From Candidatus Omnitrophota bacterium (GTDB taxonomy: Bacteria; CAIJMQ01), in assembly GCA_018812925.1 (NCBI GenBank), contig JAHJCU010000011.1, positions 1 to 5,096 on the forward strand: a stretch of 5,096 nucleotides of DNA. Direction: 5' to 3'. The number at the start of each line of letters is the position of its first letter. Within the stretch, counting starts at the first letter, position 1. The notes below the pieces were generated by a model. That model had not been told where the DNA came from, searched no databases, and worked only from the letters and a program-made list of their open reading frames with translations. Both the position numbers and the translations under genes were made by a program. Positions 2,462-5,096 of this stretch are shown in pieces.

Positions 2462-4135
2462 GTGAAAGTAGTTACTTCTTCCCAAATGCAAGAAATAGAT
2501 AAAGAAACCATTTTAAGTTATGGTATATCGTCGCTTGTTTTAATGGAAAATGCGGGGAGAAAAGTTAGTAAAGTAGCAGTGAAGATAGTAGAAAAAGGTT
2601 CCTCGCTTTGTCGCCAAAGCTATAGAGCGCCGCGCCCCCCAAAGTCTTGTACGGCGGGCAGGCAGGTGACTGTTTGCATATGTTGCGGAGGCGGAAATAA
2701 CGGCGGGGACGGATTAGTTGCGGCAAGATATCTATCGGAAAAAAAGTATAAAGTTAAGGTATTTCTTTTTTCGGAAAAATTAAGTAAAGATACAGCCGCA
2801 AATTTCGAGATTTTAAAGAAAACAAGAATACCTTGTATTCTTGTTAATAGTGGGCGTATTTTTGCGGAGTATGAGAAAGTTATTTTTTCTAATGATTTGA
2901 TCATAGACGCACTTATAGGTACCGGACTTAAAGGTAAGGTAAAAGGTTTTTTAACGGATGTTATATCTTCTCTCAATGGTGCCAATATTCCCATACTTTC
3001 CGTAGACTGCCCTTCCGGTTTTACTTCTGATGTAAAATTAACCGACCATAATTGTATAAAAGCTTTTGCTACAGTTACTTTGGCATTGCCTAAACAAGAT
3101 CTGCTTATTTATCCATGTAAAGAATTTGTCGGGAATCTCTATATCGCAGATATAGGTATTCCAAAAAAACTTTTGGCTCAGAAAAAAATTAAAACCTCGC
3201 TTATTGATAGAAAACTTATACTTCAATGGCTTAGTATTCCAAGAAAACCTGATTCGCATAAAGGAGATTGCGGGCATGTTTTTATACTTGCTGGTTCTAA
3301 AAATACGCCGGGTGCGAGTGTGTTGGCCGCGAAGGGAGCGTTAAGAAGCGGAGCGGGATTGGTTACATTAGGTATTCCACAGTGTATCCATCAAATGGTT
3401 GCGACTAAATTAACAGAATCAATGACTTTACCTTTGCCTGAAACTAAAGAGGGCACATTATCTTTAAAAGCAGAAAAGAAAATATTGGAATTTATATCTG
3501 ACAAAGCAGATGTAGTAGTTATTGGTCCGGGGCTTTCTTTAAACAATCAAACAAGAAAACTGATAATAAGTATTTTGCCTAAGATAAAGAAACCCGTTTT
3601 AATTGATGCGGATGGTATAACACATTTATCTAAAAATGCTAATATACTAAAACAAAGAAAATTCTCCACAATTATCACTCCGCATCCCGGAGAAATGGGA
3701 CGATTAGTAAAACTTACTCCTAAAACAATTAATAAAAGAAGGATTGAAATAGTAAAGAAGACATCCTTAAAATATAATATTTTTACGGTTTTAAAAGGAG
3801 CTTCTACTATTATTGGAACTCCCGCCGGCGAGATTTTTATAAATATAACCGGCAATCCGGCGATGAGTAGCGGGGGAATGGGGGATGTTCTTTCGGGTTT
3901 AATTGCAGGATATATGGCGCAAACTCTGAACCAGAACGAGTTCGGTTCGGGGTGGGAATTCTCTCCTCTTCAAGCATGTATCATGGGTGTATATATTCAC
4001 GGATTAGCCGGTGATTACTTGAAAAGTAAAATGGGGGAAAGAGGGATTTTAGCTTCAGATTTAGCGGACGTAATTCCTTTAGTGTCTAAAAAGACTATCA
4101 AAAAAGAATTGACAGATAGGTTTTTTCTGATATAA
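2462..4135 (+). CDS. nnr: Bifunctional NAD(P)H-hydrate epimerase / ADP-dependent dehydratase
   Basis: Nnr repairs hydrated NADH and NADPH: the N-terminal YjeF_N domain interconverts the R and S hydrates, and the C-terminal ribokinase-like domain dehydrates the S form using ADP. Epimerase motifs: LMENAGRKV (27-35), GGGNNGGDG (76-84), the acidic residue in IIDALIGTG (Asp149) and VDCPSG (181-186). Dehydratase motifs: SHKGDCGHVFILAGS (265-279), GAGL (297-300), IGPGL (354-358), IDADG (381-385), HPGE (408-411), LKGA (444-447) and the catalytic GGMGDVLSG (471-479, Asp475). GTG is used as start, with AGGAG (2451-2455) at 6 nt and only 2 nt after the pdxJ stop. At 557 residues it is longer than the roughly 515 of E. 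coli. Two in-frame inserts explain most of the excess: residues 47-68, encoded by GC-rich DNA, and residues 490-500, encoded by a hairpin. Motifs on both sides of each are intact, so I read the gene as functional. The stop codon lies inside the -10 box of the next promoter. Confidence 0.95.
   Translation: MKVVTSSQMQEIDKETILSYGISSLVLMENAGRKVSKVAVKIVEKGSSLCRQSYRAPRPPKSCTAGRQVTVCICCGGGNNGGDGLVAARYLSEKKYKVKVFLFSEKLSKDTAANFEILKKTRIPCILVNSGRIFAEYEKVIFSNDLIIDALIGTGLKGKVKGFLTDVISSLNGANIPILSVDCPSGFTSDVKLTDHNCIKAFATVTLALPKQDLLIYPCKEFVGNLYIADIGIPKKLLAQKKIKTSLIDRKLILQWLSIPRKPDSHKGDCGHVFILAGSKNTPGASVLAAKGALRSGAGLVTLGIPQCIHQMVATKLTESMTLPLPETKEGTLSLKAEKKILEFISDKADVVVIGPGLSLNNQTRKLIISILPKIKKPVLIDADGITHLSKNANILKQRKFSTIITPHPGEMGRLVKLTPKTINKRRIEIVKKTSLKYNIFTVLKGASTIIGTPAGEIFINITGNPAMSSGGMGDVLSGLIAGYMAQTLNQNEFGSGWEFSPLQACIMGVYIHGLAGDYLKSKMGERGILASDLADVIPLVSKKTIKKELTDRFFLI
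2600..2665 (+). repeat. GC-rich in-frame insert inside nnr (palindromic repeat candidate)
   Basis: About 66 nt encode residues 47-68 (SSLCRQSYRAPRPP and onward), between VEKG and VTVCICCGGG. Homologous epimerases, as I remember them, have no such segment. The base composition is about 65% GC inside a clearly AT-rich gene. It contains a perfect hairpin, GCTTTG (2605-2610) with CAAAGC (2615-2620) around a 4-nt loop, and a second possible stem, CGCCG (2628-2632) with CGGCG (2652-2656). The 3' part reads GGCGGGCAGGCAGG. The length is a multiple of three and keeps the frame open. This is the pattern of intragenic palindromic repeats such as the Rickettsia palindromic elements, but no second copy is present in the window. 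Exact ends are uncertain by a few bases. Confidence 0.6.
3928..3961 (+). repeat. Second in-frame hairpin insert inside nnr
   Basis: Residues 490-500 (NQNEFGSGWEF) separate two halves of a conserved stretch, AQTL and SPLQACIMG. In E. coli the corresponding residues (QKL and SPYDAA) are adjacent, so 11 residues (33 nt, 3929-3961) appear inserted. The DNA folds into a hairpin: GAACC (3928-3932) and GAAC (3934-3937) pair with GTTCGGTTC (3940-3948), with one bulged A and a 2-nt loop. The segment is more GC-rich than its surroundings. It lies after the catalytic GMGD motif, in a place where a surface loop could be tolerated. Confidence 0.45.
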
Positions 4136-4270: not shown

Positions 4271-4307
4271 CCATTAATAGAAAATCTATTAGTGGGTTTT
4301 TATTTTT
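4271..4307 (+). terminator. Intrinsic terminator just upstream of tRNA-Thr
   Basis: An 11-bp stem (4271-4281 with 4285-4295, one G-T wobble) closes an AAA loop and is followed by GTTTTTATTTTT (4296-4307). This is a strong rho-independent terminator in the + direction. It lies after nnr and after the promoter at 4109-4136, and its T tract ends only 8 nt before the mature 5' end of the first tRNA. It therefore either ends a separate short transcript or works as an attenuator. Confidence 0.8.
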
Positions 4308-4315
4308 CTGGAATT

Positions 4316-4390
4316 GCTGGCGTAGCTCAGGGGTAGAGCAGGGGTTTTGTAAACCTCAGGTCGGGGGTTCAAATCCCTCCGCCAGCTCCA
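4316..4390 (+). tRNA. tRNA-Thr (anticodon UGU)
   Basis: The cloverleaf is complete: acceptor stem GCTGGCG with CGCCAGC, D arm GCTC/GAGC, anticodon stem GGGGT/ACCTC with loop TTTGTAA, and T arm GGGGG/CCCTC-type pairing around TTCAAAT. The anticodon TGT (4348-4350) reads ACA. The 3' CCA is encoded (4388-4390), unlike the other three tRNAs here. It corresponds in order and anticodon to E. coli thrU, first tRNA of the tufB operon. Confidence 0.95.
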
Positions 4391-4393
4391 TTA

Positions 4394-4502
4394 GGACAGA
4401 TGTCGGAAATCAGACATCAGAAGACAAATATAGGATTTAAAATTATTAGTTCTATTTTTTGTTTTTTCTGTTGACTGTATTCTGTCCTCTGTTTTCTGTT
4501 GA
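4394..4502. repeat. Inverted arms of 7-bp periodic repeats, Thr-Tyr spacer
   Basis: The left arm (4394-4428) is five heptads of the type NNNCAGA: GGACAGA, TGTCGGA, AATCAGA, CATCAGA, AGACAAA. The right arm (4468-4502) is five heptads CTGTNNN: CTGTTGA, CTGTATT, CTGTCCT, CTGTTTT, CTGTTGA. The arms are inverted relative to each other, and GGACAGA (4394-4400) pairs perfectly with TCTGTCC (4481-4487). The centre (4429-4467) is AT-rich. A local hairpin, GATGTC (4399-4404) with GACATC (4413-4418), is also possible. It resembles in form the heptanucleotide short tandem repeats described in cyanobacteria; function unknown. Confidence 0.6.
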
Positions 4503-4510
4503 ATTAAAAA

Positions 4511-4592
4511 GGGGAGATACTCAAGCGGTCAACGAGGGCAGACTGTAAATCTGCTGGCTATGCCTTCGAGGGTTCGAATCCTTCTCTCCCCA
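4511..4592 (+). tRNA. tRNA-Tyr (anticodon GUA)
   Basis: A class II tRNA with a long variable arm. The acceptor stem is GGGGAGA with TCTCCCC, followed by discriminator A (4592). The anticodon stem is GCAGA/TCTGC with loop CTGTAAA, anticodon GTA (4545-4547), and the T loop is TTCGAAT. CCA is not encoded and must be added by a nucleotidyltransferase. No strong promoter is seen in the spacer before it, so it is probably transcribed together with tRNA-Thr(UGU). Confidence 0.95.
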
Positions 4593-4598
4593 CTATAA

Positions 4599-4673
4599 TA
4601 GTGACCAGTGGTTAGTGGTCAGTGGTCAGAATAAAAAGTATTAGAGAATTTACTCATCACTGGTCACTGGAAA
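4599..4673. repeat. Inverted arms of 7-bp periodic repeats, Tyr-Gly spacer
   Basis: The left arm (4601-4628) is four heptads GTGACCA, GTGGTTA, GTGGTCA, GTGGTCA. The right arm (4653-4673) is CTCATCA, CTGGTCA, CTGGAAA in the opposite orientation. GTGACCAGTG (4601-4610) and CACTGGTCAC (4658-4667) are perfect inverted copies, and pairing extends to about 14 bp (4599-4612 with 4656-4669) if wobbles are allowed. The AT-rich centre is about 24 nt. The layout matches that of the Thr-Tyr spacer, but the heptad sequence differs. It begins 7 nt after the tRNA-Tyr 3' end. Confidence 0.65.
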
Positions 4674-4682
4674 CTAATTAAT

Positions 4683-4753
4683 GCGGGTGTAGCACAATGG
4701 TAGTGTCGCAGCCTTCCAAGCTGTCTATGGCGGTTCGATCCCGCTCACCCGCT
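4683..4753 (+). tRNA. tRNA-Gly (anticodon UCC)
   Basis: Acceptor stem GCGGGTG with CACCCGC and discriminator T (4753). The anticodon stem is GCAGC/GCTGT (one G-T pair) with loop CTTCCAA, anticodon TCC (4715-4717), reading GGA and GGG. The T loop is TTCGATC. CCA is not encoded. It corresponds to glyT in the E. coli operon. Confidence 0.95.
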
Positions 4754-4802
4754 CTTGTATAGATTAAGGATTTAATTTATTTGTGTAGTCATAATTAAAA
4801 GC

Positions 4803-4830
4803 TTGACATATATTGTTATTTTAGTATAAT
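4803..4830 (+). promoter_or_regulatory. Perfect-consensus sigma-70 promoter for tRNA-Thr(GGU) and tuf
   Basis: TTGACA (4803-4808) and TATAAT (4825-4830) are exact and 16 nt apart, followed by GGAACGC, a GC-rich stretch where stable-RNA promoters have their discriminator. Transcription would start near 4837, about 8 nt before tRNA-Thr. With no terminator between that tRNA and tuf, it very likely drives both, matching the need for high EF-Tu output. Confidence 0.88.
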
Positions 4831-4844
4831 GGAACGCTTTTTTT

Positions 4845-4917
4845 GCTACTGTAGCTCAGTTGGCAGAGCGCATCCTTGGTAAGGATGAGGTCACCGGTTC
4901 AATCCCGGTCAGTAGCT
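4845..4917 (+). tRNA. tRNA-Thr (anticodon GGU)
   Basis: Acceptor stem GCTACTG with CAGTAGC and discriminator T (4917). The D arm is GCTC/GAGC, the anticodon stem CATCC/GGATG with loop TTGGTAA, anticodon GGT (4878-4880) reading ACC and ACU, and the T arm ACCGG/CCGGT with loop TTCAATC. CCA is not encoded (CAG follows). It lies 56 nt upstream of tuf and corresponds to thrT, the tRNA just before tufB in E. coli. RNase P and 3' processing would release it from a shared tRNA-mRNA transcript. Confidence 0.95.
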
Positions 4918-4973: not shown

Positions 4974-5096
4974 ATGGCAAAAGAGAAATTCGAGAGAAAG
5001 AAACCGCATATAAATATAGGAACGATAGGCCACGTAGACCATGGCAAAACGACGCTAACATCAGCAATAACAAAAGTATTGTCAATTAAAGGTATG
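4974..5096 (+). CDS. tuf: Elongation factor Tu, N-terminal fragment (runs off the window)
   Basis: EF-Tu is the GTPase that delivers aminoacyl-tRNA to the ribosomal A site. Only the first 41 residues are present, but they are unmistakable: [19 protein letters not shown], then the G1 P-loop GHVDHGKT at residues 19-26, with Lys25 and Thr26 as nucleotide-binding residues, and LTSAITKVL of the first helix. The ATG is preceded by GGAGG (4961-4965) at 8 nt spacing. The gene is cut by the window edge, not truncated biologically as far as can be seen. Four of five Ile codons are ATA, unusual for a gene that is normally highly codon-optimised. It is probably co-transcribed with tRNA-Thr(GGU) from the promoter at 4803-4830. 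Confidence 0.97.

Follow-up and report, generated by a model that had tools for sequence, protein, structure and literature searches.

In-frame insertion of palindromes into genes is an already known phenomenon, and REP elements are thought to be mobilised by Y1 (RAYT-like) transposases. Several described systems come close to the one analysed here. Rickettsia palindromic elements (RPEs) are dispersed palindromes that lie in frame within Rickettsia genes (PMC3733652, PMC10969869); the first ones described measured about 150 bp (PMC10969869), and some of those in R. conorii end in CGTC (PMC3733652). GTAG- and CGTC-tagged REPs consist of an imperfect 20–40 bp hairpin with a conserved tetranucleotide on one side, and some are intragenic, including in UvrABCD (PMC3733652). 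MITEs measure 70–300 bp (PMC3733652) and can form in-frame fusions (PMC10969869), and the available part of a report on nematomorph mitochondria describes coding palindromes, i.e. inverted repeats of up to 284 bp in protein-coding genes that are left unbroken (PMC6649704).

Here, we analysed a 68-nt segment of nnr that very probably consists of two small mobile palindromes inserted in frame, the second of which belongs to a 27-nt family with the consensus CCCGCCTGCCAAATCTTGGCGGGCAGG. A partial literature search returned no description of a 27-nt, CAGG-tagged family open in six frames, of its density in genes or of its presence in phage portal genes, and no report linking its tail motif with palindromic elements.

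The nnr insert and its parts

Its domain and structure matches (Table 1) identify the protein that carries the insert as an ordinary bifunctional Nnr. GC content was computed as 63.6% at 2600–2665 cf. 36.1% in the remainder of nnr, and the richest 66-mer in the window (the whole stretch of 5,096 nucleotides analysed here) starts at 2629 and has 65.2% GC, relative to a maximum of 60.6% elsewhere. The insert frame is open and includes a perfect 6-bp hairpin, GCTTTG-TCGC-CAAAGC, at 2605–2620. The initial annotation had described just such a GC-rich, open, in-frame insert of 66 nt with a 6-bp hairpin, and we confirmed this description, with the limits refined from 2600–2665 to about 2599–2666 (68 nt). 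It had also regarded the insert as one palindromic repeat; its palindromic nature stood, but the insert is a composite of two palindromes, an older 5' palindrome (element B) and a copy of the 27-nt family (element A). Folding of the insert alone was not above dinucleotide shuffles (z = -0.55; 53 of 200 were as good), so the hairpin by itself is no evidence and the case is one of comparison.

Table 1. Features of nnr and its insert (positions in the window).
Feature	Position	Strand	Evidence or remark
nnr, bifunctional NAD(P)H-hydrate epimerase/dehydratase, 557 aa	2462–4135	+	Insert host; YjeF_N 9.6e-42, Carb_kinase 2e-57, 2ax3/TM0922 2.8e-83
Element B, 5' palindromic element	2599–2634	+	Contains the hairpin at 2605–2620; encodes SSLCRQSYRAP; also in nnr of G001 and G002
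Element A, degenerate copy of the 27-nt palindrome family, ending in GGCGGGCAGG	2630–2662	+	Model R2 match at 2630–2664, 26.1 bits
33 nt in nnr of G000 and G001, missing from nnr of G002	2632–2664	+	Alignment of three congeneric genes
Second CAGG, downstream of the CAGG tail of element A	2663–2666	+	Sequence

The element A copy in nnr is decayed, with 10–11 mismatches to the ungapped consensus, and in the nnr frame it encodes PPKSCTAG (cf. PPKSCRAG in Ogt). The CAGGCAGG junction at the second CAGG recurs at a 24-nt insert in RACo. Within Nnr, the insert is placed after a helix and before the strand that runs into the GGGNNGGDG motif. In an AlphaFold model built from a shallow alignment, residues 45–67 had a pLDDT <50 and were mostly unstructured, and the N-terminal 36 residues were equally poor.

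Comparison with relatives placed the insert within one clade. Nnr was present in 36 of 41 genomes, including the genome from which the window derives (G000) and two congeners (G001 and G002). The Nnr protein alignment, which the initial annotation had recommended as a check on whether the extra residues were confined to a strain or clade, showed that they were restricted: Nnr of G001, 97% identical to that of G000, shared the insert with a further 9 nt inside it, and G002 retained only its 5' part. No comparable segment was found in aligned Nnr of other families or in TM0922, with the exception of an unrelated His-rich loop (L055). Because two separate assemblies carry the insert, an assembly error is unlikely. 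Identity between G000 and G001 was 82% inside the insert, and the flanks had 1 mismatch in 137 positions and 28 in 1467. Nnr probably remains functional, as judged from its intact frame and motifs.

Element B of G001 and G002 nnr contains CGTC. One more copy was found in G001, where contig C26 begins inside a sequence that resembles the insert's 5' half in nnr (LRRQSFGASA followed by TKIQVLAPL; peptide frame LRRQS(F/Y/H)) and is fused to uvrA. Compared with the putatively ancestral KYPVSTKIQVLAPL of G000 uvrA, this copy tentatively represents a filled site opposite an empty one, at a contig end. A pattern search with the 5' half, allowing up to 3 mismatches, recovered only the nnr copies and one G001 contig end, and the remaining matches look like chance.

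Other repeats were observed elsewhere in the window. Two more palindromes, CCCATTAGAAATAGATTTTCTAACGGG and CCATTAATAGAAAATCTATTAGTGGG, lie at 242–268 and 4271–4296. The TCTAACGGG motif also adjoins copies of family A, in G000 (L203, L213) as well as in G001 (L234), a recurrence that suggests another repeat family. Four tRNA genes (Thr, Tyr, Gly and Thr, as read from the sequence) at 4316–4917 are followed by the start of tuf at 4974–5096, and the genes are interspersed with CAGTGGTTAGTGGTCAGTGG and CTGTCCTCTGTTTTCTGT repeats that look dispersed. The arrangement resembles the E. coli order thrU-tyrU-glyT-thrT-tufB.

A dispersed family of 27-nt palindromes

The family consensus comprises 27 nt, or nine codons, is nearly palindromic and is open in all six frames. 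A BLAST search of the insert against its own genome gave only matches of 14–17 nt, several of them coincidental, and none >17 nt; a plasmid collection searched with the insert gave no match. The initial annotation had proposed a nucleotide search for other copies and would have counted their absence against a mobile repeat; the copies are too degenerate for such a search, so this criterion would have misled. The tail GGCGGGCAGGCAG, which the initial annotation had likened to repeats dispersed in candidate-phylum genomes, is indeed dispersed: with one mismatch allowed, 7 copies were found in G000 and 18 in G001, where a reversed control gave 0. The contexts of these copies share the hairpin CCCGCC...GGCGGGCAGG.

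We rely on a covariance model (R2) of 26 copies with zero rows from nnr. It supersedes a first model (R1), whose match to nnr was circular because two of its rows came from that gene. R2 matched the nnr copy (Table 1) with E = 0.005 over the complete G000 genome, a moderate score, and by sequence comparison 2630–2664 is a degenerate member of the dispersed family. The model gave 40 matches in G000, 61 in G001 and 21 in G002 (both strands were counted, so a palindrome matched on both counts twice), as well as 8, 12, 19 and 7 matches in G004, G005, G007 and G121, respectively (both strands counted), and 0 in G003, G006, G008, G016 and G026. A strict 27-mer pattern occurred in 4 of 386 genomes (G000, G001, G002 and G007), with 0 matches to the reversed control in all; G007 is related to G000 at domain level only and lies outside its class. 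An alignment of 41 copies revealed a sharp boundary, conservation ending directly after CAGG.

Approximately 17 of 27 fetched copies in G000 were within genes, all of them in frame (our own count over fetched sites). The hosts encode ProS, RseC, UvrC, UvrD, Ogt, a radical SAM protein, a proton antiporter subunit, an acyl transferase, HPPK (twice), HypF, a Band 7 protein, a glycosyl transferase, an AIR synthase-like protein (probably ThiL), RACo, the product of a small unassigned ORF and Nnr. Those of G001 include PdxA, MurE, AspS, RACo, PGK, IleS and others. AspS, PdxA and PGK are each exactly 9 residues longer than solved structures, and the gap is element A. In these bacterial genes 5 of the 6 frames are in use (by reading). 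DNA-repair genes of G000 and G001 repeatedly host in-frame palindromes (uvrA, uvrC, uvrD and ogt; L243, L202, L204, L207), and ileS of G001 (L235, G001:C21 near 5165) has in-frame ACAGAGGACAGA-type repeats adjoining an GGCGGGCAGGGAGG tail.

Exact 27-mers were also present in 5 IMG/VR contigs, all within portal protein genes. Among portal genes of 80 relatives, a 27-nt insert encoding PARQxLAGG occupied one site in 3 and RLPSLGGQ was found at a second site in 2, and close relatives were empty; for example, the empty site CAGACCTCC^CGCCACCGC in L264 is filled by 27 nt in L294. In-frame CGTC-like repeats, GTCATTGCGAG...GAAGCAATC, of up to 62 residues and clustered at a few sites, are carried by portal genes (L272, L283, L286, L294, L298, L301, L309, L315 and L338), some of the same genes among them, and separate CGTC-like repeats (GTCATTGCGAG...) occur in G001.

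Filled and empty sites and the possible origin of the insert

Presence or absence of inserts among close relatives was observed in RACo, FolK, Ogt, a lipoprotein-like gene, uvrA and, for 33 nt, nnr. RACo of G000 has 24 nt, CCCCGATAAAATCAACGGGGCAGG, where G001 has the empty site CCAGA^CAGGTGAAATC; a further family copy in RACo of G000 is nested in an older palindrome that is empty in G001, and at another place RACo of G001 has 54 nt extra. FolK of G000 is 21 nt longer near its end, Ogt of G000 is one copy (24 nt) ahead of G002 with the extra copy adjacent, and the lipoprotein-like gene has 42 nt in G001 and none in G002. In uvrA of G000 (L243, G000:C11 near 229126–229163), a palindrome that belongs to a different family, PRRPSDVGAGSPDGRRDG, adds 54 nt in frame; G001 lacks it. 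As judged from the sequences compared, sites that are filled in one species and empty in a related one point to mobility. Together with the dispersed in-frame copies and nine-codon inserts, they support the initial proposal of an RPE-like repeat, mobile and palindromic, whose entry leaves genes unbroken. Junctions in RACo, FolK and portal genes revealed no target-site duplication flanking the element and no constant target.

In the order of events that we propose, element B would have entered nnr in an ancestor common with G002, followed by a copy of element A in the G000/G001 lineage, although the 33-nt difference could be a deletion in G002. Genes tolerate the family because its unit is nine codons and open in six frames, such that any landing adds about nine residues, such as PARQxLAGG, LPAKxWQAG or PPKSxRAG, and copies landing in tolerant loops would outlast selection. 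The hairpin may be moved in trans by a single-strand transposase (IS200/IS605- or RAYT-like), with the CAGG/CCTG foot as its putative recognition tag and no target-site duplication. Y1 transposases numbered 4 in G001 and 2 in G002, none of these genes being directly flanked by the 27-mer family, and none was found in G000 (92% complete). Besides these transposase results, the junctions that lack a constant target or duplication and the insert lengths other than 27 nt, what counts against the mobile reading is that the nnr copy is decayed and scores only moderately (E of 0.005) and that element B has just one other copy, located where a contig ends.

An alternative is a replication-based origin, by which GC-rich hairpins would arise and be copied locally through polymerase template switching or short-repeat recombination, without a transposase, and selection would retain multiples of three. 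The failure to find a dedicated transposase, the variable insert lengths (21, 24, 27, 42 and 54 nt, several filled/empty differences being 21, 24, 42 or 54 rather than 27 nt), the additional adjacent copy in ogt and the lack of visible target-site duplication are all in keeping with it. We nevertheless consider it unlikely, as the recurrence of one 27-nt consensus, ending sharply at CAGG, in numerous unrelated loci, in G007 and in phage genes requires long-range copying of one particular sequence. Much less probable is a loop selected for Nnr regulation or partner binding that happens to be repeat DNA: two species have retained the insert and its frame has survived a 9-nt change in length, but it diverges much faster than its flanks between G000 and G001, as a neutral spacer would, and the (weak) structural model predicts no secondary structure for it. 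That the segment is an ordinary fast-evolving Nnr loop, GC-rich and with a short hairpin by chance, is hardly credible despite its unexceptional fold and the want of BLAST matches >17 nt elsewhere in the genome, given the R2 match obtained without nnr training rows, the filled and empty sites of sister copies, the stepwise difference restricted to one clade and the parallel 9-residue inserts in other enzymes.

Insertion of two mobile palindromes remains our preferred reading. More speculatively, and with some doubt, we suggest that such frame-proof, CAGG-tagged 27-nt palindromes are exchanged across lineages by phages and bacteria that are not related, and that they continue to lengthen core enzymes and structural proteins of phages by nine residues at a time, by means of a host or phage single-strand transposase acting in trans. 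In-frame palindromes in core genes, best known from Rickettsia, are dense in an uncultured lineage unrelated to that genus, and genes of phages carry them too. The length and sequence of the element make every landing frame-safe, and it would be a small source of new protein segments; single-copy differences with exact filled and empty sites make its movement and its role in protein evolution directly testable.

Comparison with known palindromic elements

Element A is a dispersed unit of 27 nt, unlike the animal mitochondrial palindromes of nematomorphs, for which the available part of the source mentions no such unit (PMC6649704). It resembles MITEs in being short, inverted-repeat and non-autonomous in kind, but is much shorter than these and has no visible target-site duplication. 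With REPs it shares a hairpin, a tetranucleotide foot (CAGG/CCTG) and the absence of target-site duplication, and its 27 nt fall within the hairpin size of GTAG- and CGTC-tagged REPs, which also resemble it in their hosts, as uvrA, uvrC, uvrD and ogt carry inserts here. It departs from these REPs in its CAGG/CCTG tag, in the intragenic position of most fetched copies and in that no Y1_Tnp gene flanked by the repeat was found. RPE descriptions set element A apart by its length, by its CAGG/CCTG tag (it ends in CAGG rather than CGTC) and by where it occurs, namely a different lineage and the genes of phages. Like RPEs, however, the palindromes described here are dispersed through the genome, lie in frame within unrelated and apparently functional genes, form several families per genome and include double insertions in one gene.
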